64,000 nucleotides of DNA from Thiocapsa bogorovii (lineage in GTDB: Bacteria; Pseudomonadota; Gammaproteobacteria; Chromatiales; Chromatiaceae), in the NCBI RefSeq assembly GCF_021228795.1, contig NZ_CP089309.1, positions 3,779,501-3,843,500 of the forward strand. Direction: 5' to 3'. The translations under genes were made by a program, and so were the position numbers. Shown piece by piece: positions 7,570 to 45,385 of this stretch (position 1 is its first letter; the number at the start of each line of letters is the position of its first letter). The notes beneath the pieces were generated by a model that was given only the letters and a program-made list of their open reading frames with translations, had not been told where the DNA came from and did no database searches.

Positions 7570-7634
7570 CAGCGCATCCTCCGGGACCTGTTTCGACCGG
7601 GACCGGCTCCAGATCCTACGCCCGCGCGCGATCA

Positions 7635-10006: not shown

Positions 10007-11509
10007 TCATGCCCGAGACGCCTTCAGCTCGGTCTCGACCTTCGTGAAGCGCGCGGCGAGGCCCTCGTGTTTTTTCTTGTCCGCGCGACTGACCAGGACG
10101 ATCGCGAGCGTCGCGAAGAGGATGCCAGGCACGATCTCGTAGAGCTCGAACAGGCCGCCTTGGAGTTGCCGCCATCCCAACACTGTCAGGCCGCCGACCA
10201 AGATCCCGGCGAGCGCCCCAAGACCGGTCATGCGCGGCCAATACAGTGAGAGGACCAGCGCCGGACCGAAGGCCGCTCCGAAGCCTGCCCAGGCGTAGGC
10301 GACGAGATCGAGCACCATAGCATCCGGGTCCAGCGCCAACCAAAAGGCGGCGACGGCGATCACGACGACCGTGATCCGCCCGACGGCGACCAGCTCGCGT
10401 GCCCCGGCCTTGCGACGCAGCAGGGTGCGATAGAGGTCCTCGGTGAAGGTGGACGAGGAGACCAGCAGCTGCGAGTCAGCGGTGCTCATGATTGCGGCCA
10501 GGATGGCGGCGAGGAGAAGACCCGCGATCAACGGATGAAACAGCAGATCGACGAGCAGGATGAAGACGGTCTCGCGCGCCTCGGGCGCGAGCGGCTGCTC
10601 GATGATCAGAATGCCCGCAAGGCCGGTCAAGGTGGCGCCCGCAAGCGTGACGGCGACCCAGGTGACCGCAATCCAGCGGGCCAGCGGCACCTTTCGCGGC
10701 GACGCGATCGCCTGGAAGCGGGCGAGGATGTGCGGCTGACCGAAATAACCCAGGCCCCAGGCGGCCAGGGAGAGGATACCGATAAAGCCCAGTGCGCTGC
10801 CGTCGGCGCGCGTGAAGGGGTCCAGGAGGTTCGGGTTGGCGGCCTCGATCACCTCGAGCGCCAACGCGGTATCCCCGATCTGCGATACGGCCACCCAAGG
10901 CACGGCGACCAGGGCCACCGCCATCAGCATCCCCTGCAGGACATCCGTCCAGGAGACGGCCAAAAACCCGCCGATCGCGGTGTAGATCATGATGGAGAGG
11001 ACGCCGATCCCCACGGCCCAGAGATAGGGCAGCCCGAAGACCGACTGGAAGAGCTTGCCCCCGGCCACCAAGCCGGCGCTGGTGTAGAGCAGAAAGAACA
11101 GCAGGATAAACAAGGCGGCGATGCCGCGTAACCATCCGGCCCGGTCTTCGAATCGGTTGGCGAAATACTCCGGCAGGGTCAGTGCGTTGCCGTACGCCAT
11201 GCTGAAGACCCGAAGGCGCGCCGCGACCAGGCGCCAATTCGCCCAAGTGCCGAGCAAAAGCCCGCCGGCGAGCCAGACCGACTCAACGCCGGCCGCGTAG
11301 GCGAATCCGGGAAGACCGAGCAGCAGCCAGCCGCTCATGTCCGAGGCGCTGGCGCTCAATGCGGCGACCCCGCTGCCGAGCCGCCGGCCGCCGAGGATAA
11401 AGTCCGACAGATCCCGGGTGCGCCGATAGGCGTACCAGCCGATCATCCAGACCACGGCGAAGTAGACGGCGAAGGTGAATGCGAGAAGGAATGGATTCTG
11501 GGTCGACAT
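10007..11509 (-). CDS. putP: Sodium/proline symporter
   Basis: The 500-aa protein of the sodium:solute symporter family has about 13 predicted membrane segments. The N-terminal stretch ALSASASDMSGWLLLGLPGFAYAAG carries the sodium- and substrate-site residues typical of PutP, and GNALTLPEYFANRFED follows as in the family. It imports proline with Na+ for nutrition or osmoprotection. It stands alone, with no putA nearby. The C-terminal cytoplasmic tail is lysine-rich. Confidence 0.92.
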   Translation of the reverse strand: MSTQNPFLLAFTFAVYFAVVWMIGWYAYRRTRDLSDFILGGRRLGSGVAALSASASDMSGWLLLGLPGFAYAAGVESVWLAGGLLLGTWANWRLVAARLRVFSMAYGNALTLPEYFANRFEDRAGWLRGIAALFILLFFLLYTSAGLVAGGKLFQSVFGLPYLWAVGIGVLSIMIYTAIGGFLAVSWTDVLQGMLMAVALVAVPWVAVSQIGDTALALEVIEAANPNLLDPFTRADGSALGFIGILSLAAWGLGYFGQPHILARFQAIASPRKVPLARWIAVTWVAVTLAGATLTGLAGILIIEQPLAPEARETVFILLVDLLFHPLIAGLLLAAILAAIMSTADSQLLVSSSTFTEDLYRTLLRRKAGARELVAVGRITVVVIAVAAFWLALDPDAMVLDLVAYAWAGFGAAFGPALVLSLYWPRMTGLGALAGILVGGLTVLGWRQLQGGLFELYEIVPGILFATLAIVLVSRADKKKHEGLAARFTKVETELKASRA

Positions 11510-11598
11510 GCGGGGTCCTTTCGATTGGCCGATTCGCCTTGTCGGATCGGTCTCGGATCGTTAGTTTAGGGTTTGCCGGCGGTCGTTTCCAAAACGAC

Positions 11599-11790
11599 TG
11601 AACCGCGCCCGGCGCGGCATGCGGTGTTTTCGGATGGAATCGGCCCCGGCAGACTTGACGCGCGTTAGAGTCTGCGCGATTCAACACATTAAAAACTATA
11701 TTCTTTTAAAACGCGCCCCTTCCAGGGGTCATGGATGCACCAAAGGTCGAGAGCGCTCGAGCACGAGCCGCTCACTCTGGACGCGGTTTA
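11599..11790. repeat. Bipartite CGCGGTT-family palindromic element, copy A
   Basis: Module 1 runs from TGAACCGCGCC (11599-11609) to GCGCGATTCA (ending 11683). An AT-rich linker follows (about 11684-11707), and module 2 ends in GACGCGGTTTA (11780-11790). Internal blocks such as CGGCCCCGGCAGACT (about 11641-11655) recur in the copies at 12371 and, in part, 45164. It fills most of the putP-nudix spacer and ends 16 bases before the nudix start codon. Confidence 0.75.
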
Positions 11791-11806
11791 GATCGAGGAA
11801 TCTCCC

Positions 11807-12373
11807 ATGACCGAAGCACGGATCCTGAAGCGTGAGCCTGTCTTTGAAGGCCGGGTGATCGACGTCGCCCTCGAGACCGTCGCTATGCCCTCGGGGCAGG
11901 AGGTGCAGCTCGAGATCATCCGTCACCCCGGCGGTGCCGCCGCGGTCGCCTTGGACGAGCAGGATCGCGTCTGTCTGTTGCGGCAGTTCCGACACGCCGC
12001 GGACGGCTGGCTCTGGGAGCTTCCGGCGGGCAAGATCGATCCGGGCGAGACGCCGCGCGACACGGCGACCCGCGAGCTCGCCGAAGAAGCCGGCCTGACC
12101 GCGGAGGACTGGACCGATCTCGGACGCATGCACAGCTCGCCCGGCGTCTTCGCGGAGGTGATTCATCTCTGGATGGCACGCGGGTTGACCCGGCAGCCGC
12201 ACGCGCACGAGCAGGACGAGCTGATCGAGATCCATTGGCTGCCCTTGGCCCAGGCACTCGACTGGTGCAACGACGGCGAGATTACCGACGCGAAAACACT
12301 TGTCGGTCTCTACCGTGCGCACGGGATGATCAAGAGTGCCCTCGAAATGCTCTCCGAGGATGCGGGCTGCTAA
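11807..12373 (+). CDS. Nudix hydrolase, ADP-ribose pyrophosphatase-like
   Basis: The 188-aa protein has a full Nudix box, GKIDPGETPRDTATRELAEEAGL (near 84-106), fitting G-x5-E-x7-REUxEExGU with the Mg2+-binding glutamates. The upstream strand LEIIRHPGGAAAVALDEQDRVCLLRQFRHAADGWLWELPAG and downstream SPGVFAEVIHLWMARGL match the ADP-ribose/NDP-sugar pyrophosphatases (NudF type). It would hydrolyse ADP-ribose to AMP and ribose 5-phosphate. The gene sits between two palindromic elements: copy A ends just before its RBS (GAGG), and its own TAA stop is the first three bases of copy B. Confidence 0.88.
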   Translation: MTEARILKREPVFEGRVIDVALETVAMPSGQEVQLEIIRHPGGAAAVALDEQDRVCLLRQFRHAADGWLWELPAGKIDPGETPRDTATRELAEEAGLTAEDWTDLGRMHSSPGVFAEVIHLWMARGLTRQPHAHEQDELIEIHWLPLAQALDWCNDGEITDAKTLVGLYRAHGMIKSALEMLSEDAGC

Positions 12374-12561
12374 ACCGCGCCCAGTGCGCCATGCGATGTT
12401 TTTGGATGGGATCGGCCCCGGCAGACTCGACGACCGTTGGACCCGGCGCGGTTTAGAGGATTAAGGAACAGATCCTGTTCACTGCGTCCCCGCGAAGGGT
12501 TGTGGATGCACCGAGCGTCGAGCGCATTCACACGAGATCATCTCGCTCGGGACGCGGATCA
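12371..12561. repeat. Bipartite CGCGGTT-family palindromic element, copy B, stop codon to stop codon
   Basis: Module 1 is bounded by an exact 11-bp inverted repeat, TAAACCGCGCC (12371-12381) and GGCGCGGTTTA (12445-12455). A linker and a second module follow, ending in GACGCGGATCA (12551-12561). The first TAA is the stop codon of the Nudix gene, and the last TCA, read on the minus strand, is the TGA stop of znuB. The element therefore fills the convergent spacer exactly. Confidence 0.8.
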
Positions 12562-13389
12562 ACGCACCTGCCGCGGGCGCACCAGCCGTCTTCGGCCGAT
12601 CAGACCTCGCCCGGCCTCGACCGTCGCGGCCAGCGCGATCAGCACCGCGACCAGCACCGGACCGAAGGGCTGATCCAGCGCCAGAGCGGCGAGGTAGGCC
12701 AGGAGATAGCCGCCGGCGCCGCCGAGCGCGCAGATCGCCATTGTCCAGGTCCAGCCGGGGGCAATGCGAAAGGCGATCCAGGCCGGCACCAAGACCAGCG
12801 CGAAGGCCCCCATCAGACCGACGGTCGCGGTGCCGATCGCCATCGCCAGCGCGGCCAAGAGGTCGAAGCTCAGGTGCCAGCGGTGTGTCGGCAGGCGGTT
12901 CGCGGTTTCGTCGTGCGGAAAGAAACGTGCGCGCATCAGCCGGGGTACGAGCCGTGGCAGGGCGGCCGCGGCGAGCCCGGCGAGCGCGAGTGCGGCGCAC
13001 AATTCCGCTGCCCCCGCGAAATACAGCTGACCGTCGACGAGCGCATGGCCGAGTGTCGCGCCCAGGCGCGTGTTCGCCGCGATCAGAAAGAGCGCCGACC
13101 ATCCGAAGAGGATCATGAACCCGTAGGCAAGATTGCCGCGTGCCCCGGTCAATGATTTGACCGCACCCCCGGCCAGCGCGCCGAGCGGTGCACCGAGGAC
13201 CGCGGGCAGCCCGAACGCGAGTCCGAGCAGTGCGCTCGCCGCGGCCAGATGCGCGAGTCCGAGCGCGGCCAGCCATTCGTCGCGCAGCACGAGCAGGGCC
13301 CCGATGGGCGGCAACACCAGCGCGATGGCCAGCCCAGTGATCAACGGCACCCGAAACAACGGATCCAAGACCAAATCCAGCGCGCTCAT
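12559..13389 (-). CDS. znuB: Zinc ABC transporter permease (ZnuB-like)
   Basis: The 276-aa ABC-3 family permease is strongly hydrophobic, with about 8 membrane helices and the family features LRDEWLAALGLAHLAAASALLG near the N-terminus and a conserved middle region, LLAALAMAIGTATVGLMGAFALVLVPAWIAF. The frame is open to 13617, but the ATG at 13389 overlaps the ATPase stop in an ATGA junction, so translation is probably coupled. It would carry Zn2+ (possibly Mn2+) across the inner membrane. Confidence 0.87.
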   Translation of the reverse strand: MSALDLVLDPLFRVPLITGLAIALVLPPIGALLVLRDEWLAALGLAHLAAASALLGLAFGLPAVLGAPLGALAGGAVKSLTGARGNLAYGFMILFGWSALFLIAANTRLGATLGHALVDGQLYFAGAAELCAALALAGLAAAALPRLVPRLMRARFFPHDETANRLPTHRWHLSFDLLAALAMAIGTATVGLMGAFALVLVPAWIAFRIAPGWTWTMAICALGGAGGYLLAYLAALALDQPFGPVLVAVLIALAATVEAGRGLIGRRRLVRPRQVR

Positions 13390-14947: not shown

Positions 14948-15034
14948 TGAAATCGCGTCGGCTCCAAGATCACGGACACATGCGTCCAGCGATCCCGAGT
15001 GAACCCGCTGCATGTACCGGGGGACGCGATTTCA
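14948..15034. repeat. CGCGGTT-family palindromic element, single module
   Basis: An exact 12-bp inverted repeat, TGAAATCGCGTC (14948-14959) and GACGCGATTTCA (15023-15034), differs from other copies by a C-to-T change matched by G-to-A on the other arm. A direct repeat of TGAAATCGC brings the motif to the TGA stop codon of the outer-membrane gene (15043-15041, minus strand). Confidence 0.65.
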
Positions 15035-15040
15035 GCGATT

Positions 15041-16699
15041 TCAGAAGGCGTGCGCCCCGTGCGATCCCATGCTGACCAGGAACTGCAGATAGAAGGCGTC
15101 GAACCGCTCGCGCTCCCCGGGGGCCACCAGGATGTCGTTGTGCGCATACTGAGCGCGCAGTCGCGAGAATTCCGAGAGGTTCCAGGTCACATCGAAGGTC
15201 CACCGATCCGACGAGCCGAAGCTCGCGTTCTCGCTGCCGCTGATCTCGTTGGTCATCCCGAGCACGTCGTAGCGCAGGCCGGCCGTCCATTTCGGGGCGA
15301 ATCCGTAGATCGCCTGGGCATAAAGACCGTCCGTGGTGAAGGTACGGCGCGTGCCGAGAACCTCCGGATGGGCGCTCGAGGTGATCTTCATATCCTTGAT
15401 CGAGCGCAGATACTCGCTCTGGAACTTGAAGCTCTTGTGTCCGTAAGCGCCGCCGCCGTCGTAGGTGTAGACCAGATCGACACCCCACAGCTGGGCGTCG
15501 CCGGCGAGGCCGTCGCGGAGGATCTCGATCTCGTGATCCGCGTCATGCGCATCCTCGTGATCACCGTCGTGTTCGAGCGTGTCCTCCCGCGCCTCTTGAT
15601 GCTGGTTGTTGTTTGCGTAGGACAGTCCGAGCTGAAGCGCATGATTGGTGCCGATCTCGGGTGCGACCTTGGCGAAGGCGGTCCAGAGTCGCGGGCCGTC
15701 GTCGGTGTCGCCGAGCTCCAGCGCCGCCTGGTCGTCGTCGCCCAAGGTCGCGCCGAAGATCTCCTGGTTGCCCTGCAAGCCCTCGACGCCGAGTAGGGTA
15801 TAGACCGGCAGCTTCGGGAGCCAGGTGAGCTGGAGTCCGGTGTCCTGAAGCCCGTGCGGGCCGAGCAGATTGAGGTAAGGCAGATTCTGATCGACGAAGT
15901 CCCATTGATGGGGATGCTGTCGATTGATGTACCCGAAGTCGCTGAGGAACTTGCCGCCTTTCACGCGCAGGCCGGCCGGGAGGCTGCGGGTTTGAAAGAA
16001 GCCCTCTTCAAGCTCCACGGTGCCGTCTCCGTCGATCGAGAGGAACAGGGAGGCGTCGAAGTAGGGGTCGACGGTTGCCGAAAAGGCGATCTCGGCCTCG
16101 CGGAAATTAAACCCGTTCTCGGTGAGACCGTGCAGGTGGCCGCCATGCTCCTCGTCGCCATGGTCCGCCTCGTCGCTGTGCGGCACCCCGCGCGAGGGCT
16201 GGTAGGCAAGCCCGACGAGCGTCGCGCCCTCGCCGTCGATCCCGTCGTGGTAATAGTTGCCGTCGAGGAAGACCGAGATCTGCGGGTTGAACGCGTTGCC
16301 CGAGTCCAGTGCGCCGAGAACCGTCTTGCCGGACTCCGGGCTCGCGGGCGGCGTGACCGCCGGCGCGGTCATGGGTCTGGACTCGGTTGTCGCGAGATCG
16401 GCGGCCTTCTCCGCGCGCTCCGCAGCCGCCTCCGAACGCGATGCGGCCTTGGCTGCGTCACGCTCCGCCTTGGCGAGGCGGGACTCAAGATCCTGAATTT
16501 GGCGCTCGTACTGGGACTTCATCTGATCGACCATCGCCCGGAGCTCGGCGAGCTCGGTATCCGTTGCGGGGAACGCGCTCATCGGCGTCAGCAAGGCTAT
16601 CGCGACGGCGACCCGCACCCCGGCCCTTTCAGCGAGCCGGTGTCGGACCGCAAACCCCTCTCGCGGCAGGCCCTGTGGGTCGATGTTATAACGTTTCAT
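15041..16699 (-). CDS. Outer-membrane beta-barrel protein, putative zinc-linked porin/receptor
   Basis: The 552-aa protein has a signal peptide (VRVAVAIALLTPMSAFPA), a periplasmic coiled coil (TELAELRAMVDQMKSQYERQIQDLE..., roughly residues 47-105) and a long barrel region ending in aromatic F. Two stretches are rich in His, Asp and Glu (near 180-195 and 395-412: HSDEADHGDEEHGGHLHGL and EHDGDHEDAHDADHE), which suggests metal binding. No TonB-dependent plug domain is evident. It lies upstream of znuACB on the same strand, so a role in zinc passage across the outer membrane is plausible. A GTG at 16618 with GAAAGGG upstream is an alternative start that would put the signal peptide at the N-terminus (525 aa). 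Confidence 0.7.
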   Translation of the reverse strand: MKRYNIDPQGLPREGFAVRHRLAERAGVRVAVAIALLTPMSAFPATDTELAELRAMVDQMKSQYERQIQDLESRLAKAERDAAKAASRSEAAAERAEKAADLATTESRPMTAPAVTPPASPESGKTVLGALDSGNAFNPQISVFLDGNYYHDGIDGEGATLVGLAYQPSRGVPHSDEADHGDEEHGGHLHGLTENGFNFREAEIAFSATVDPYFDASLFLSIDGDGTVELEEGFFQTRSLPAGLRVKGGKFLSDFGYINRQHPHQWDFVDQNLPYLNLLGPHGLQDTGLQLTWLPKLPVYTLLGVEGLQGNQEIFGATLGDDDQAALELGDTDDGPRLWTAFAKVAPEIGTNHALQLGLSYANNNQHQEAREDTLEHDGDHEDAHDADHEIEILRDGLAGDAQLWGVDLVYTYDGGGAYGHKSFKFQSEYLRSIKDMKITSSAHPEVLGTRRTFTTDGLYAQAIYGFAPKWTAGLRYDVLGMTNEISGSENASFGSSDRWTFDVTWNLSEFSRLRAQYAHNDILVAPGERERFDAFYLQFLVSMGSHGAHAF

Positions 16700-18302: not shown

Positions 18303-20044
18303 CTAGCCCGAATATTTCATAAAAAAGGGCGACTCTCGTTCAACCCATTGATAAAATGGCTGTTCCGCCAAGAACGCTTCGGAAGAAGCTAAACGAGGTC
18401 GCCCATGCCCGAGTCTACCCCGGAACAGCTGCGTTTTCCCCCGGTCGCCGGTTTCACGGTCCGCGGCGACTTCGACGGCGGCGCCATGTCGTCTGACTTT
18501 GGCCCCATGATTCTGCGCGGGGTTGATCGGCAGATCGGCCTGACCGAGCGGTTGAGCGCAGCGATCGATGATTGGCGCCATCCGTCCTACACCACCCATC
18601 CGATGCGTGAGCTGATCGCGCAACGGGTCTACCAGATCGCCTGTGCTTACGAAGACGGCAACGACGCCAATGCGCTGCGCCGTGATGCGCTGTTCAAGCT
18701 GGGGCTGGAGCGCAAGCCGCTGGATGCGACGACGGACCTGGCCAGCGGGCCGACCTTCTCGCGTTTGGAGAATGGGGTCGGCGCGCGCGACCTCTACCGC
18801 ATGGCGCAGGCCTTCGTCGAGGCCTTCATCGCCAGCTACCCGAAGGCGCCGCAGGTGATCGTGCTCGATATGGACCACTCCGAAGACGCCACCCATGGCC
18901 AGCAGGAGTTCGCGTTCTACAATCATCACTACGGCAACCATTGCTACTTGCCGCTGTTTCTCTTCGAGGGCCTCTCGGGGAAGTTCATCACCGCGGTGCT
19001 GCGTCCCGGCAAGCGCCCCACCGGCGCCGAGAACGCGATGATCCTCAAGCGCGTGCTCAAGCGGCTGCGGGCCGCGTGGCCACGCACACGCATCATCCTG
19101 CGCGGCGACGGACACTTCTCCAACCCCGAGTTGATGGCCTTGGCGATGGCCGATCCGTTGACGGATTTCATCTTCGGCCTGGCGGGTAACCGGGCTCTCA
19201 CGCCACGGGCCGAGCCGTTCTTGGCCGACGCCCGCAAGCTCCATGCGCTGCGCATCGAGAACGCCCGGCGCGCCGACGCCGACGTACCCGAGCGGACCCG
19301 CACCTACCACGAGGTTGACTACCGTGCCGGTTCCTGGCCCGGCGCGTGTCGGACCATCCTCAAAGCCGAGGTGACGGCGCGCGGCGACAACCTCCGCTTC
19401 GTCGTCACCTCCTTGGACTTGCCCAGTCCCGAGTGCGTCTACCGCGATCTGTACTGCGCGCGCGGCCAGGACGAGAACTTCATCAAAATGATCAAGAACG
19501 ATCTGGCCAGCGATCGCACTTCCGACAGCACCTTCTTGGCCAATCAGATGCGCTTGTTCTTCTCCTGCGCCGCTTACGTCTTGCACCAAACGCTGCGCAC
19601 CGAGGTCCTCGTCGGCACGGAACTGGCCAACGCCCAGCCTGCCACCGTGATCATCAAACTGTTCAAGCTCGCCGTGCGCGTGGTGCAGTACAAAGACCGC
19701 GTGCGCCTGCACCTGCCCTCGAGCTGTCCGGTCAAGACGCTGTTGCAGCAGGTCACCGAGAGGCTCTTCAACGCGCAGCCCGGGCGGCGCCCGCCTAGAC
19801 GCACATACATCCCCGCACGGGGATTTCAGCACGCGCACGACGACTATGCCCACCTCGGGCAGGGCATCGTACGCCTGCGCGGCGACAAAACTACTCGTGC
19901 CCCGTTGATCAAGCCCGTTGCCGCTCGGTATTTCCACCATTCAACCCCCGCGGCGTCCCGGTCATCGCCCTCGGTGACGCCCAGCGCCGCGCAAATCCGC
20001 GAGGCCAGTGTCGGCTGTGTCGGTTTATGAAACATCCGGGCTAG
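18303..20044 (+). mobile_element. IS1380-family insertion sequence
   Basis: Terminal inverted repeats of 21 bp are CTAGCCCGAATATTTCATAA... (18303-18323) and its partner at 20024-20044, matching at 19 of 21 positions; the outer CTAG resembles ISEcp1/IS1380 ends. They enclose one transposase gene. No target duplication is evident: the left flank ends ...CGAACAC and the right flank begins TACCTCG, which is also the end of the neighbouring palindromic element. Confidence 0.9.
18405..20030 (+). CDS. IS1380-family transposase
   Basis: The 541-aa DDE transposase looks intact. The first catalytic Asp lies in VIVLDMDHSEDATHGQQEF with PLFLFEGLSGKFITAVLRPGKRP after it, the second in RIILRGDGHFSNPELM, and the Glu in LYCARGQDENFIKMIKNDLASDRTSDSTF, the YREK-like signature of the family. 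The remainder (LANQMRLFFSCAAYVLHQTLR) is also typical. The stop codon lies inside the right terminal repeat. It is somewhat longer than many family members (about 450-500 aa). Confidence 0.92.
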   Translation: MPESTPEQLRFPPVAGFTVRGDFDGGAMSSDFGPMILRGVDRQIGLTERLSAAIDDWRHPSYTTHPMRELIAQRVYQIACAYEDGNDANALRRDALFKLGLERKPLDATTDLASGPTFSRLENGVGARDLYRMAQAFVEAFIASYPKAPQVIVLDMDHSEDATHGQQEFAFYNHHYGNHCYLPLFLFEGLSGKFITAVLRPGKRPTGAENAMILKRVLKRLRAAWPRTRIILRGDGHFSNPELMALAMADPLTDFIFGLAGNRALTPRAEPFLADARKLHALRIENARRADADVPERTRTYHEVDYRAGSWPGACRTILKAEVTARGDNLRFVVTSLDLPSPECVYRDLYCARGQDENFIKMIKNDLASDRTSDSTFLANQMRLFFSCAAYVLHQTLRTEVLVGTELANAQPATVIIKLFKLAVRVVQYKDRVRLHLPSSCPVKTLLQQVTERLFNAQPGRRPPRRTYIPARGFQHAHDDYAHLGQGIVRLRGDKTTRAPLIKPVAARYFHHSTPAASRSSPSVTPSAAQIREASVGCVGL

Positions 20045-20309
20045 TACCTCGTTCCACCTTATTTTGCGTGCTCAGCGAGGCGAGAAGCATTCAGCGGCTA
20101 GGCGCGCGAGCGCAGGAAGAGTGACCCTCTTTCAAGCTCGGGCAACAACGGCGCTGAACGCTTCTCACCTCGCCCTTCGGGAGCCCCCCAAAGGCGCCAG
20201 GGCAGCGTTACAGCCCTTGGAAATAGCTTCCCACTATTCCCCGCGGTCTGTGCCTTGCCCTGACGCCTTTGGGGGGCTCTGAGCATGCAAAATAAGGTGG
20301 AACGAGGTA
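20045..20309. repeat. MITE-like nested palindromic element
   Basis: Outer arms of 31 bp (20045-20075 and 20279-20309) match at 30 positions and begin TACCTCGTTCCACCTTATTT. Inside lie two further long stems: 20075-20096 with 20152-20173 (20 of 22 match) and 20181-20204 with 20256-20279 (23 of 24 match). The whole 265-bp unit has no coding content and ends 5 bases before the creA stop codon. It looks like a miniature transposable element without its own transposase. Confidence 0.85.
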
Positions 20310-20314
20310 CTCGC

Positions 20315-29586: not shown

Positions 29587-31217
29587 GCCGCTTCGACTGG
29601 CTGTCCGAGTTTCTCGCACGGTTCGAAGACGATCATCCGATCGCCCGATATGAAGACGTCCGCGCCTTGGCCCCGGCCCATCGTCTGGAGCTCGACGCCG
29701 AGGACTGGGGGGCGGCCGGGAAGATCGCTGCGGCGATGGGGCTGAGGCACGCAGGTGTCTGGGCCGACCCGCTCGGGGATCGTCCATCGGAGAGCCCGCA
29801 GGAGAGCGGGAGCGAGATCGAAGGTCCGGCCATCCGCGTTCAAGCGTGCCTCGAGCGGGACGGCGACTACCTGATCCTGCAAACCCTGGTTCCGGAAACA
29901 CGCCCGGTTCTGGACTCGCACACCCCGCTGTTCCCCGGCGTCGATCGCCTGGAGCGCCATGCCCAAGACCTGACCGGCGTGCGCTTTCACGGGCACCCGG
30001 ACGAGCGGCGTTGGACCCGCCATCAGGCCTGGTCGACCGATGACTTTCCCCTGCGCGCGGATTTCCCGATCGAGGGACGCAGCGTGCGGCGTACCCCGGC
30101 CGATGTCGACTACCCCTTCACCCGCATCCAGGGCAGCGGCGTCTACGAGATCCCGGTCGGACCCGTCCATGCCGGCATCATCGAGCCCGGGCACTTCCGT
30201 TTCCAGGCTGCGGGCGAGGATGTCATGCGTCTGGAGGCGCGCCTCGGCTATGTCCATCGCGGGATCGAGAAGCTCGCCGTCGGGCGCGATCCGCAGGGTC
30301 TGATGCGACTCGCCGGGCGCGTCTCGGGCGACTCGACCGTCGCCCATGCCTGGGCTGCCGCTCAGGCGATGGAACGGGCCGTTGGTTGCGCACTGCCGCC
30401 ACGCGCGACGAGCCTGCGCGCCATCCTGGCCGAGCGCGAGCGCATTGCCAACCACCTCGGCGACATCGGCGCCATCTGCAACGATGTCGGCTTCGCCTTC
30501 GCCCATGTCCAATGTGCCCGGTTGCGCGAGCAGTGGCAGCGCCGCAGCGCCGCGCTCTTCAGCCACCGCCTGATGATGGACACACTGGTCCCGGGCGGTG
30601 TCGCCCACGACATCTCGGAGACCGACTTCCGCGAGCTGCGTCTCGACCACGCGGCCCTTCACAAGGCCATCGCGCCCCTGTTCGATATCATCGACGACCA
30701 CCCGTCGCTCGACGACCGTCTGATCGGCACCGGCATCCTCGCGCAGGCCGACGCCCGCGCGCTCGGTTGTACCGGCTATGTCGGCAAGGCCAGCGGCCTT
30801 GCGTTCGATGTCCGTCGCGACAATCCCTATGCGCCTTACGACCAGGTGCGTGTCGAGGTCCCCGGAGAGACGGCGGGCGACGTCGCTGCCCGCGTTCGGG
30901 TTCGCATGAAGGAGGTTTGCGCGAGTCTCTGGATGCTCGATCGACTGCTGGATGCCCTGCCGGAGGGCGAGATCGCCGTACCCTTCCCGCTTCCGGAGGA
31001 GGGTGCCGTGGGCCTTGGCCTGGTCGAGGGTTGGCGAGGGGAGATCCTCTGTTTCGTGCGGTTCGCCGCGGAGGGCCGGATCGCCCGCTACTTCCCGCGC
31101 GACCCGAGTTGGTTCACCTGGCCGGCCCTGGAGCGCCTGATTCACGGCAACATCGTTCCCGATTTTCCGGTGTGCAATAAGTCGGTCAACGGGTCTTATG
31201 CGGGGGTGGATCTCTGA
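29583..31217 (+). CDS. hyfG: Large subunit of Ehr-type complex (NuoC-NuoD fusion, no NiFe ligands)
   Basis: The 544-aa protein starts at GTG 29583, overlapping the HyfF stop. Residues 1-165 form a NuoC-like domain (RLERHAQDLTGVRFHGHPD, FPLRADFP) and the rest a NuoD/hydrogenase large-subunit domain (GSGVYEIPVGPVHAGIIEPGHFRF...RLGYVHRGIEKL). In NiFe enzymes the first ligand pair is RxCGxC; here it is RVSGDS (246-251). The C-terminal DPCxxC is replaced by DFPVCNKS (527-534), with one lone Cys. It therefore cannot hold a normal NiFe site and belongs with the energy-converting hydrogenase-related (Ehr) group. Its redox role is unknown. The TGA stop begins a palindromic element. Confidence 0.92.
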   Translation: MSRFDWLSEFLARFEDDHPIARYEDVRALAPAHRLELDAEDWGAAGKIAAAMGLRHAGVWADPLGDRPSESPQESGSEIEGPAIRVQACLERDGDYLILQTLVPETRPVLDSHTPLFPGVDRLERHAQDLTGVRFHGHPDERRWTRHQAWSTDDFPLRADFPIEGRSVRRTPADVDYPFTRIQGSGVYEIPVGPVHAGIIEPGHFRFQAAGEDVMRLEARLGYVHRGIEKLAVGRDPQGLMRLAGRVSGDSTVAHAWAAAQAMERAVGCALPPRATSLRAILAERERIANHLGDIGAICNDVGFAFAHVQCARLREQWQRRSAALFSHRLMMDTLVPGGVAHDISETDFRELRLDHAALHKAIAPLFDIIDDHPSLDDRLIGTGILAQADARALGCTGYVGKASGLAFDVRRDNPYAPYDQVRVEVPGETAGDVAARVRVRMKEVCASLWMLDRLLDALPEGEIAVPFPLPEEGAVGLGLVEGWRGEILCFVRFAAEGRIARYFPRDPSWFTWPALERLIHGNIVPDFPVCNKSVNGSYAGVDL

Positions 31218-31335
31218 ACCGCGCCACCATGCGACAGGCGCGATTGGCTCTTGATTCGGGCCTCAAGTCCATCAACGAACGCTTCAGCGGGCGCGGTTCA
31301 GGATATTGAATGCTTTTTTTGGAACCGCGTCATGC
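31215..31335. repeat. CGCGGTT-family palindromic element, copy D (module 1, linker, start of module 2)
   Basis: An exact 11-bp inverted repeat, TGAACCGCGCC (31215-31225) and GGCGCGGTTCA (31290-31300), bounds module 1. An AT-rich linker ending in seven T follows, then GGAACCGCGTC (31321-31331), the start of a truncated module 2. The first three bases are the stop codon of the large-subunit gene. Confidence 0.75.
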
Positions 31336-31514
31336 GGAGGTTCCATGGGTATCTTCGACATCGCCGGTGGCGATAACCGTCCCTTAGCCACCGTTCAAAG
31401 CGATCCATCTTAGCCCCTCCCTCGCGGGAGAGGGGTTGGGGAGAGGGGGAGAATGAACCGAAATGGCTAAGTTGTTTCTGCACCGTCCCCTAGCACTCGG
31501 AGACGCGATTCAGC
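31336..31514. other. Spacer before the small-subunit gene with a purine/pyrimidine hairpin
   Basis: The region has no gene. CCCCTCCCTCGCGGGAGAGGGG (31414-31435) forms a strong hairpin and is followed by a G-rich stretch to about 31453. Together with copy D it makes a 297-base break inside an otherwise overlapping operon. Confidence 0.45.
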
Positions 31515-39213: not shown

Positions 39214-39375
39214 ATGTCGATGCGTCTCTCCACCCTTGCCACTGCCATTCTCCTGGGTTCCATGCTGGTCGCCGGCTCCCTCATGACGGCTCACGCCGGT
39301 GAAGGTTGCACCAAGGACAAGAACAAGGAGAGCGGAACCTCCGCAGCCTACCCGTCCACGATTCGGCAGCTCTAA
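39214..39375 (+). CDS. Small secreted peptide, unknown function
   Basis: The 53-aa protein has an N-terminal signal peptide (MSMRLSTLATAILLGSMLVAG...) cleaved near AHA-GEGC, leaving a mature peptide of about 24 residues, hydrophilic and Lys/Glu/Ser-rich with one cysteine. GAGG lies about 10 bases before the ATG. No family is recognised. The TAA stop is the first three bases of a palindromic element. Codon use and a clear signal sequence favour a real gene, but shortness keeps this uncertain. Confidence 0.55.
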   Translation: MSMRLSTLATAILLGSMLVAGSLMTAHAGEGCTKDKNKESGTSAAYPSTIRQL

Positions 39376-39562
39376 GCCGCGCTTTTCAGTCCTTTAAGAT
39401 GATCGAGGCGGGGCAACCCCGTTTCGATCGCTTGCTTCGACGAGGCGCAGTTCAGGATTTTTCGTGTTTTAACTTCCTGAACCGCGTTTCTTCGACACCC
39501 CCGAATCTCACCGACAACCAAATAAGTCCCACTCCGCGCCTAACCTGCCCTAACGCGGTTCA
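39373..39562. repeat. Bipartite CGCGGTT-family palindromic element, copy E
   Basis: Module 1 (39373-39454) starts TAAGCCGCGC at the stop codon of the small peptide and has a weaker partner GCGCAGTTCA. The linker (39455-39477) is T-rich. Module 2 is bounded by an exact 11-bp inverted repeat, TGAACCGCGTT (39478-39488) and AACGCGGTTCA (39552-39562). The right end is 2 bases from the stop codon of the convergent sensor gene. Confidence 0.75.
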
Positions 39563-39564
39563 AA

Positions 39565-41175
39565 TCAGAACCGACCGCGAATATATTTGAGTGCACGGCT
39601 GATCGGCAGCTCGATGTTCGACGGACCATTGCGGATGATAAACAACTCGCGGTTCTTGTCGTCGTGCAGGAAGGTCGGCGTGTCCGCGCGCTCGCACTCG
39701 ACCGCTCCCACGCGTAGACCCTCCAGGTCATAGAGGTCAAAGCGCACGAATCGTGCGTACTCGGCGCCGATATGGTGGTTGAGCAGGTTCTTGAAATGCA
39801 ACCTGCACTTGTCCTCGTTCTCGAACTTGTCGGCCTCCAACCCCAGCACGGTTCCCTTGTCCGATACCCCGAGCAACAGTATCCCGCCTTCCGAATTCAG
39901 GAAGGCCGCGACGGCCTTCAGCCAAGCAAGCTCGATCTCGCGACCCGTCGCCTTGCTGTGCAGGTTCATGCGCATCGTCGATTTGAATTCCAGATGCGTA
40001 CTTTCGCCCGAGTCGATCAGCTCGCGCAGATCGTCCTCGGCGCGACGCCGGTCGATGCTGAGCTTGGGAGTGTCGCGTAATTGGCGGTGATACTTGCGCA
40101 CCACCAGCGTTGTCATGCCCAGACTCGCCATCAGGATGCCAAGCACCGTCAGCGCAACGATATGCCACCGGCTCTGGAGGATCGCGAGGGTCTCGGAGAC
40201 AGGGATGACCACGCCGGCCCAACCGCCCGAGAGGTCCTCGGTCAGCGGTCTGAAGCCGCCCCACCACTGAACCCCCGAGCTGGTGAAACGGATGAGACCC
40301 TGTGACGGTCGGCCCGCCAGGTTCCAGGCCGACACGGCGTCGAATGCCAGGGGCCCGCCGGGCGTAAGGTGGGCTGAAAAGAAACCGCTGGCCTGCTCCG
40401 GATCCGGGGCTCGTGCGCTGTCCACGGGAACATAGACGCCGCCCGCCCCGCTGAAGAGAAAACCGCGTCCTTCGGCGGCGACCGCATGTCGCTCGATGCT
40501 CTCCACGATTGTCTGAATGGTGACGTCCAGTGCGGTGACCCGCAGCTGTCCCGACTGCATCCAACCCAAGGATGCGGTGAGTCCTGGGACCTGGGTCGAC
40601 TCGAACACATAGGGTCGGGTCCAGAGCAGGGTGCCGGGTCGATCGGCCGCGGCGGTGAACCAGGGGCGCGTGTTCGAATCGTACTCGCTTGTCTCCTCGC
40701 GCGTCCCCAGAGGGCGCAGCTCGGCGTCCCAGCGCGTGATGCGCATCGGCTGTCCCGTTCCTGGATCCCGCAGTCGGCTCATCCAGCCGTCGCCGTCGCG
40801 CCGCAGAAAATACTCGGCGCCGTCGGCCGAGGCATCGATCGCGCCTGCGATTTGGCCCATGTGCGCGAGAATCGGAGTCAGGCGTTGATTCAACGCCCCC
40901 TCGTCGGTTGGGGTCAGACCCGCAGCCGCCAGACCGTCTCGAATGATCAGGAGTTGTTGCTCGACCGGCACCAAGAGGCTGCGAACCTCGTCGCGAACCA
41001 ACGCGGTTGCGGCCTCGATGCGGCTTTCGGCCAGATCTTCCTTGATGAGGTTGATCAGGAGGATATTGATGGCCACCAACAGGCCGACGGTCAGGAGCAC
41101 CAGCAGCACAAGGTCGCGAAGGAGCCGCGAGCGGATCGGACCCGACGAGGTCCGCAGCAGTGAGAAGGGTGTCAT
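39565..41175 (-). CDS. Membrane sensor with periplasmic Cache-like domain fused to an AlbA_2 domain
   Basis: The 536-aa protein has a membrane helix at about 22-46, a large periplasmic domain (about 47-345) with dCache-like features (YDSNTRPWFTAA, WTRPYVFESTQVPGLTASLGW, RPLTEDLSGGWAGVVIPVSETL) and a second helix near 350-372. In place of a kinase or cyclase, the cytoplasmic part is an AlbA_2 (Schlafen AlbA-like, putative DNA-binding) domain: ESTHLEFKSTMRMNL...AFLNSEGGILLLGVSDKGTVLGLEADKF...RVGAVECERADTPTF. The protein would link an extracellular ligand directly to a nucleic-acid-binding or nuclease-like output. No partner gene is evident. Confidence 0.85.
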   Translation of the reverse strand: MTPFSLLRTSSGPIRSRLLRDLVLLVLLTVGLLVAINILLINLIKEDLAESRIEAATALVRDEVRSLLVPVEQQLLIIRDGLAAAGLTPTDEGALNQRLTPILAHMGQIAGAIDASADGAEYFLRRDGDGWMSRLRDPGTGQPMRITRWDAELRPLGTREETSEYDSNTRPWFTAAADRPGTLLWTRPYVFESTQVPGLTASLGWMQSGQLRVTALDVTIQTIVESIERHAVAAEGRGFLFSGAGGVYVPVDSARAPDPEQASGFFSAHLTPGGPLAFDAVSAWNLAGRPSQGLIRFTSSGVQWWGGFRPLTEDLSGGWAGVVIPVSETLAILQSRWHIVALTVLGILMASLGMTTLVVRKYHRQLRDTPKLSIDRRRAEDDLRELIDSGESTHLEFKSTMRMNLHSKATGREIELAWLKAVAAFLNSEGGILLLGVSDKGTVLGLEADKFENEDKCRLHFKNLLNHHIGAEYARFVRFDLYDLEGLRVGAVECERADTPTFLHDDKNRELFIIRNGPSNIELPISRALKYIRGRF

Positions 41176-41368: not shown

Positions 41369-41836
41369 ATGTCCGAGATCCATTACGACGCTCATCCCTC
41401 GATGTTGCGGATTCGTCCCTTTTCGACCCCATTGATCATCATCCTGATGCTGGCGGGGATCCTGTTCGCCGTCACGGGTTCGGCATTGATCCCGGTTCCA
41501 CTGCCCGAGCCGCTCGATGACCGAATCGTGAAGATTGCGGGCATGGTCGTCGCCGGACTGGCCTTGTTGCAGTTGTGCGTCTGGTGGTTGGCCACGCGAT
41601 CCGACCATCTCGTAATCCGCGACGACGAGCTGGTCTGGACCCATGGTCTGCTCAGCAAGAACTACACCGAGATCAAGCTCTCCTCGGTCCGCACGGTGCG
41701 GCTCCATCAAAGCCTCCTGCAGCGCATCTTGAACGCCGGCGACATCAAGATCTTCACCTCCGGGGACGTTCCGGAATTGATCGTCCGTGGTCTGCCCAAC
41801 CCGAATCGGCTGCGCGAGCTCCTCAAAGGCCTCTGA
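41369..41836 (+). CDS. Membrane protein with bacterial PH domain
   Basis: The 155-aa protein has two membrane helices (about 20-45 and 58-80) and a C-terminal bacterial PH-like domain: SDHLVIRDDELVWTHGLLSKNYTEIKLSSVRTVRLHQSLLQRILNAGDIKIFTSGDVPELIVRGLPNPNRLRELL. AGGAGA precedes the ATG at 41369; the ATG two codons upstream is too close. Function unknown. Its TGA stop is the first part of the 43-bp element that separates it from pepA. Confidence 0.8.
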   Translation: MSEIHYDAHPSMLRIRPFSTPLIIILMLAGILFAVTGSALIPVPLPEPLDDRIVKIAGMVVAGLALLQLCVWWLATRSDHLVIRDDELVWTHGLLSKNYTEIKLSSVRTVRLHQSLLQRILNAGDIKIFTSGDVPELIVRGLPNPNRLRELLKGL

Positions 41837-41876
41837 ACCGCGCGACAGGATCGCATACACCGCCGGACGCCGTTCA
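41834..41876. repeat. Minimal CGCGGTT-family element, stop codon to stop codon
   Basis: The 43-bp spacer between two convergent genes begins TGAACCGCG and ends CGCCGTTCA. The first TGA is the stop of the PH-domain gene and the final TCA (minus-strand TGA) is the stop of pepA. The two 11-base ends pair at 8 positions. Confidence 0.6.
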
Positions 41877-45163: not shown

Positions 45164-45385
45164 TTAAACCGCGCCCGGCGCGGTATGCGATGTTTTGGGA
45201 TGGGATCAGCCGCTGCCGACTTGACGAGCGTTGCAGTCGGCGCGGTTTAAGATTTTAAAAAATATATTATTTTAAACCGCGTCGCCGCTAAAAGTTGCGG
45301 CTGCACATCCGTTGAGCTCACTCGAAGACCAGCATCTCGCTCTGGACGCGGTTTCGGTCTTTGGATTTTTCACTGAAACCGCGTC
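45164..45385. repeat. Bipartite CGCGGTT-family palindromic element, copy C, with an extra downstream arm
   Basis: Module 1 has an exact 12-bp inverted repeat, TTAAACCGCGCC (45164-45175) with GGCGCGGTTTAA (45239-45250). The linker, about 45251-45271, is almost all A and T. Module 2 is AAACCGCGTC (45274-45283) with GACGCGGTTT (45345-45354). A further GAAACCGCGTC (45375-45385) can pair with 45345-45355, so the two structures exclude each other. It occupies most of the RDD-kinase spacer (45157-45459). Confidence 0.8.

Follow-up and report, generated by a model that had tools for sequence, protein, structure and literature searches.

Why should a palindromic element run exactly from the stop codon of one gene to the stop codon of the next? 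The question is raised by copy B, a two-unit element that fills a convergent spacer (12371-12561) in the stretch of 64,000 nucleotides of the Thiocapsa bogorovii genome analysed here (the window). The left TAA of copy B (12371-12373) ends a Nudix gene on the plus strand (11807-12373), while its right TCA (12559-12561), read on the minus strand, is the TGA that closes an ABC-3 (ZnuB-type) permease gene (12559-13389, minus strand). A preliminary interpretation made from the letters alone (henceforth, the sequence-only reading) had described this arrangement, and had proposed that such elements supply or target stop codons or reflect a 3'-end signal. The genome is a single contig of 5,649,927 bp, which is the chromosome size given in the accessible text of PMC10892978 for T. 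bogorovii under its former name, Thiocapsa roseopersicina BBS. The closest named counterpart loci of the window are also from Thiocapsa.

The additional contacts with stop codons listed in the sequence-only reading were all found in the window, next to genes with Pfam domains NUDIX, ABC-3, bPH_2, M17 aminopeptidase and complex-I/hydrogenase-like. A 43-bp element (41834-41876) extends from the TGA of the bPH_2 gene to the TCA that ends the M17 aminopeptidase gene. The first unit of copy D (31215-31300) begins with the TGA (31215-31217) that ends a large-subunit gene of the Complex1_49kDa-like type. Copy E (39373-39562) is made of a decayed unit (39373-39454) and a second unit (39478-39562); it starts at the TAA (39373-39375) of a small ORF, which is a weak gene call (score 8.3), and its other end lies two bases ahead of the stop of a gene (39565-41175) whose sole Pfam match is SLFN_AlbA_2. 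A variant unit, TGAAATCGCGTC...GACGCGATTTCA (14948-15034), reaches the TCA at 15041-15043 through a GCGATTTCA repeat; the gene at 15041 gave no Pfam match. Two more two-unit elements, copy A (11599-11790; missing in the relative G001) and the intergenic copy C (45165-45356), lie away from stops. A search of the window yielded 0 matches to Rfam families at gathering thresholds; a search of the plasmid collection gave no match. As a separate observation, the second unit of copy D (31321-31512) is about 100 bp longer than in relatives G008, G010 and G002, and the extra bases include a GC-rich palindromic stretch of the TCCCTCGCGGGAGAGGGG type; they are not found in the element of those three genomes.

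The end motif of the family, TRAACCGCGYC, occurs 668 times in the genome (342 + 326), compared with 17 occurrences (4 + 13) of the reversed control. Units have the form (TA)AACCGCG...CGCGGTT(TA); their arms measure about 11 bp, and their interiors are diverse in sequence and nearly fixed in length. When 124 units were gathered from 864 kb of the T. bogorovii genome and from the counterparts of the window in five relatives, with orthologs pooled, 108 of them measured 84-86 bp and the range was 79-88 bp, both TAs included. Units are found either single or in two-unit copies of about 190 bp. In the 41 two-unit copies of the six genomes, the linker is AT-rich and spans 19-24 nt in 40 cases and 31 nt in one; a GCC-type unit is paired with a GTC-type unit in 33. 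The family thus has the terminal inverted repeats, the lack of coding capacity and the size under ~300 bp that are traits of MITEs; it also shows the inverted conserved arms and the hairpin-forming, length-conserved spacer that make up the architecture of REPINs.

The distribution of the family is narrow. Among 29 genomes searched, 8 of the 11 belonging to the genus harbor 459 to 1640 ends, and the other three, which include T. imhoffii, contain 13 to 32. Outside the genus, the maximum was 43 ends, with 31 in its control. In our opinion, the observations presented here and below are probably best explained by a Thiocapsa-specific, non-autonomous, MITE-like family that inserts at TA and finds in stop codons near-neutral sites.

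The coincidence with stop codons was then counted in 864 of the 5,650 kb of the genome, including two 400-kb blocks that were picked by position and in which copies had been noticed beforehand; gene calls (759 genes in the 864 kb) were made with a home-made hexamer caller. Of 137 ends in which ACCGCGYC is preceded by TRA, 34 had a TRA that was the stop of a predicted gene on the same strand. For the remaining ends, the nearest stop was located 1-60 nt before the end in 20 cases, 1-60 nt further in in 3, and further off in 80. Single ends inside predicted genes were 5 of the 137. Cores without TRA (223 with other bases and 4 with TAG) were found at a stop in 0 of 227 cases, a class in which the core cannot itself give TAA or TGA at that place. 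A side observation is that 8 of the 137 ends begin exactly 6 bases after a stop (TRANNNTRAACC), a figure above those of neighbouring distances; these are possibly nested or reinserted ends.

Elements were also counted with a strict finder that requires both ends; in the window it detected 4 elements, and the 43-bp remnant, the 14948 variant, the whole of copy A, the first unit of copy E and the second halves of copies B and D escaped it. Of the 57 elements thus detected in the 864 kb, 28 were at a stop (2 of them at both ends), 29 were intergenic and none was in a gene. One trivial explanation is chance: in a GC-rich genome, TA is frequent in intergenic DNA and around stop codons, and stops are among the few places that contain it. 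The fraction observed is, however, well above the fraction of non-coding TA sites found at stops (7.8%; P = 1e-16) and also above that of YTAR sites (17.7%; P = 6e-8). Likewise, of the 19 elements found in convergent gaps, 14 were at a stop, versus 34 of 113 YTAR sites (30%; P = 1e-4). Hence, the enrichment of element ends at stops anticipated in the sequence-only reading stands in the 864 kb. A stop excess was also detected in relatives G010 (23/70), G001 (9/23), G004 (8/17) and G002 (5/11), while the sample of G008 (2/5) was too small; as relatives share many copies with T. bogorovii, counts across genomes are not independent.

To which sequence does the element go? When 217 elements of six genomes were sorted by their flanks, 153 orthologous groups were obtained; an empty allele was present in at least one genome for 22 of them, 32 were shared without any empty allele and 99 were untested. 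Exactly two bases were left in the empty allele in 22 of 43 filled/empty comparisons. Those bases were TA in 7 comparisons, TG in 5 and other pairs in 10, and the 15 junctions other than TA are put down to divergence. At eight separate sites, one or more of the empty alleles had TA at the junction, a number that counts copy B in Thiocapsa sp. KS1 and two sites less cleanly aligned. In the clean cases, an empty C-TA-A, T-TA-G or T-TA-A corresponds to a filled TA-AACC...GGTT-TA. When the flanks of TA/TA copies located away from stops were inspected, a pyrimidine was found before the element in 15 of 15 and a purine after it in 14 of 15. Altogether, these sequence comparisons indicate that the family is mobile, with 22 orthologous groups having an empty allele, and that it inserts at TA, mostly in a YTAR context. 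The presence of TA on both sides of the element and of a single TA in several empty alleles fits a 2-bp duplication or insertion beside TA alike. The view that elements target stop codons is thus partly supported: TAA and TAG stops contain the target, which is TA, mostly within YTAR.

The counterpart of copy B in KS1 provides a direct view of an empty site. In this element-free strain, the TAG of the Nudix gene and the minus-strand TAA of the permease gene overlap on one TA, and the Nudix gene ends at the same codon as in the copy B allele. Because a KS1-type empty site is one TA common to two overlapping convergent stops, copy B runs from stop to stop. The Nudix protein ends after the same Gly-Cys in 9 of 14 element-free loci; the 5 loci that differ are more distant. 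Relatives harbor two-unit copies in both orders at the copy B site, and therefore insertion, inversion or replacement has taken place there on more than one occasion. At the 41834 site, G002 and G008 carry 144 bp more, and on this comparison the 43-bp element is the remnant left by internal deletion of a longer element. The adjacent bPH_2 product is also 155 aa long in T. imhoffii, and it extends 7 and 18 residues further in G006 and G009, respectively.

On these grounds, a mechanism can be proposed. Insertion would occur at TA, mostly within YTAR, leaving TA on both sides. If a TAA or TAG stop were hit, the target TA and the outermost A of the element would make up a TAA on either strand, and the protein would remain unchanged. 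A hit in the one TA of overlapping convergent stops would keep both stops, and the element would then extend from stop to stop. Insertion slightly upstream of a stop would in turn supply a new one.

Comparison of C-termini in filled and empty alleles permits a distinction between kept and supplied stops. Seven polymorphic groups have the element at a stop, and in five of them the empty allele ends at the same place. In locus G001_B 140909, the empty allele has a stop at the junction in three genomes (TAA, TGA and TGA), with 152 codons each; in G001_B 185530, the empty allele has TAG at the junction, with 222 codons in both alleles. Direct reading showed identical C-terminal residues in G010_B 100118, where the empty allele has TAG at the junction in two genomes, and in G010_B 186148, where it has TGA. 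The fifth case, own_A 169335, with an element at two stops, is marked as doubtful: the empty allele of G001 retains TAAACC, the first bases of the element, and may be a deletion footprint. The stop was changed in the other two groups. In G010_A 63919, the protein is 12 C-terminal residues shorter with the element, and four relatives have those residues; in G002_A 13358, the element terminates an altered frame. The contrary idea that elements never create stops was discarded in view of this truncation and this altered frame among the seven groups. Hence the proposal that elements supply stop codons applies to a minority, namely two of the seven polymorphic stop groups; it fails for the other five and for copy B, where the old stop is kept. 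Judging from aligned alleles, supplied stops do happen as a minority outcome.

It might still be argued that the elements mainly create stops by truncating genes after landing towards their 3' ends. A TRA at the beginning of each end and the two altered loci are in line with this idea. However, besides the kept stops just described, genes should run into an element in the other two reading frames just as commonly, and the nearest stop was 1-60 nt further in for only the 3 of 137 ends mentioned above. Truncation as the main source of the coincidence is thus very unlikely.

Insertion preference may be one part of the explanation and retention another. The fraction of groups at stops was 7/22 for polymorphic groups, 19/32 for shared groups and 40/99 for untested ones (Fisher P = 0.057 for polymorphic versus shared). 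If the YTAR value of the T. bogorovii genome is taken as the expectation for pooled groups, the excess is clear for shared groups (P = 2e-7) and not significant for polymorphic ones (P = 0.09). The latter figure would suit chance; the former, together with the per-element and convergent-gap counts, makes chance an extremely improbable cause of the pattern. Retention at harmless sites probably adds to the stop excess, and its share may equal that of insertion preference. According to the mechanism proposed, copies inside genes would be lost and copies at stops would be kept by selection, and the stop fraction would rise with age.

The difference between shared and polymorphic groups also admits another explanation: elements might be 3'-end signals kept by selection, with the stop inside the stem of a hairpin that guards the mRNA end or stops transcription. 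Five units that were folded gave z-scores of -1.6 to -4.1, and the arms co-vary. On the other hand, about half of the copies are away from stops, and template switching also yields arm covariation. Furthermore, a scan of 11500-12700 detected no intrinsic terminator (GC-rich stem plus T run) at copies A and B, and the one terminator-like site in that interval compares with 1.0 expected. We thus view 3'-end function as an unlikely cause of the coincidence, and favor insertion at TA followed by retention.

Examination of element ends uncovered two main kinds. The outer bases of the 124 units were TA/TA in 71, TG/CA in 36, TA/CA in 3, TG/TA in 2 and other in 12, with orthologs pooled. Among the copies tested, empty alleles were found for 22 of 70 with TA/TA ends and for none of 24 with TG/CA ends (P = 7e-4), so that no target could be read for the latter 24. 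Because empty alleles are seen for TA/TA copies only, TG/CA copies appear to be the older kind. One position further outwards, the flanking bases can pair with each other in 6 of 18 young TA/TA copies, 87 of 132 other TA/TA copies and 31 of 36 TG/CA copies, again with orthologs pooled; the young set comprises 18 of the 22 copies with an empty allele, after dropping four with unclear gaps, and their addition yields 8/22. Variation between genomes is also observed at the ends of the first unit of copy A, which are TG/CA in T. bogorovii, TA/TA in G002 and TC/TA in G004. Because the arms co-vary, outward pairing rises with age and copy A has end variants, the arms seem to have been homogenised after insertion, with older copies becoming more palindromic.

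Template switching between the arms of inverted repeats has been described as a process that homogenises them, as stated in the accessible parts of PMC8604942 and PMC8794818. Selection for a hairpin would have the same effect on the arms. With either process, TA/TA ends might be converted to TG/CA and flanking bases drawn into the stem, and old copies would end up as TGA...TCA. A bolder version of this idea is that the family is pre-adapted to stops, its YTAR target and terminal A jointly restoring TAA on both strands: arms would grow outward in concert until the host stop became the base of a hairpin acting as the 3' end of many genes, and a transposon would thus have built a genus-wide 3'-end system. 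This speculation has, in our opinion, a low probability.

As for the enzyme involved, the symmetric YTAR preference suggests a DDE enzyme such as those of IS630 or IS5, presumably acting in trans. Transposase loci were surveyed for ends that might mark an autonomous partner. No partner was found in the 30 loci scanned out of 39 with PF13358 matches in 7 genomes (including all 4 of the T. bogorovii genome), nor in the 30 scanned out of 81 with PF01609 matches in 2 genomes. Unpaired ends 300-4000 bp apart were considered as a potential partner: two pairs enclosed a gene, and inspection of translations by eye revealed that neither was transposase-like. An insertion sequence near ends in G010 (L267) was rejected as it sits inside a two-unit element. 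Aside from this search, the T. bogorovii genome contains 60 DDE_Tnp_1 (PF01609) matches, many with equal scores, and G010 contains 21; the surplus is a probable recent IS expansion.

A different type of mover would be a RAYT, a Y1 tyrosine transposase that acts on single-stranded hairpins and gives one-sided TA insertion without true duplication, as for REPIN-type elements. One-sided target recognition is the mode of IS200/IS605, unlike the symmetric preference found here (Y before, R after). While 14 Y1_Tnp matches in the genome make a RAYT conceivable, none of the 14 loci had ends on both sides when ~1.5 kb was scanned on each: one has a unit ~1.3 kb away, and one has a single end. REPINs as depicted in the accessible text of PMC3116915 do share inverted conserved arms, variable interiors of fixed length, compensatory changes and dimers with this family. 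Differences from REPINs and from REP-BIME elements associated with RAYT are TA on both sides, the symmetric YTAR and the lack of a Y1 gene flanked by ends. A RAYT-moved family appears doubtful, and a DDE-type mover seems a better candidate.

Several other families of palindromic repeats invite comparison. YPAL (Yersinia palindromic sequences) were reportedly placed by De Gregorio in 2006 closely downstream of stop codons, and so would follow the stop instead of lying within it. Correia/NEMIS, RUP and ERIC/RU-1 elements resemble the Thiocapsa family in being shorter than 200 bp, with terminal inverted repeats, TA ends and no protein; they have target duplication, and RUP is linked to IS630-Spn1 (PMC2229807, accessible text). 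The Thiocapsa family differs from them in its diverse interior, its often paired units and the lack of a parent IS among the loci surveyed. The accessible text of PMC2229807 makes no mention of a coincidence with stop codons on this scale for TA-ended MITEs. YPAL also are mobile palindromes with filled and empty sites; however, they lack TA ends and produce duplications of 3-26 bp (accessible text of PMC2229807). REPs tagged with GTAG or CGTC are many-copy palindromes with frequent heterodimers, as in the present case, but measure 20-40 bp and have an unpaired tag at one end (PMC3733652, accessible text), compared with ~85 bp and paired TRA/TYA ends here; Thiocapsa is not mentioned in the accessible text of PMC3733652. 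In the open-access literature searched, as far as its accessible texts go, we found no earlier report of a TA-target MITE that inserts into stop codons.

If the mechanism is correct, a TA target plus a terminal A would constitute a simple rule to find safe sites in a gene-dense genome: TAA and TAG stops, even overlapping convergent ones, would be nearly neutral landing sites, and about half of the copies counted are found there. With both filled and empty alleles present in one genus, insertion bias, retention and arm homogenisation can each be measured on their own, and the concerted change from TA/TA to TG/CA provides a natural way to test template switching against hairpin selection.

Repeats of other kinds were also observed. 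Nested long inverted repeats that do not belong to the TRAACCGCGYC family lie between two genes at 20040-20314 of the window, one of 36 nt (94% complementary) and another of 24 nt (96%). In addition, the loci of G001 and G010 orthologous to window positions 7600, 20828, 26404 and 41185 contain further insertions, either at the corresponding sites or next to them; they consist of repeats of the GGCGATTTCCGGGAA... type and simple repeats of the (GACAAC)n type, some of which adjoin elements of the TRAACCGCGYC family.
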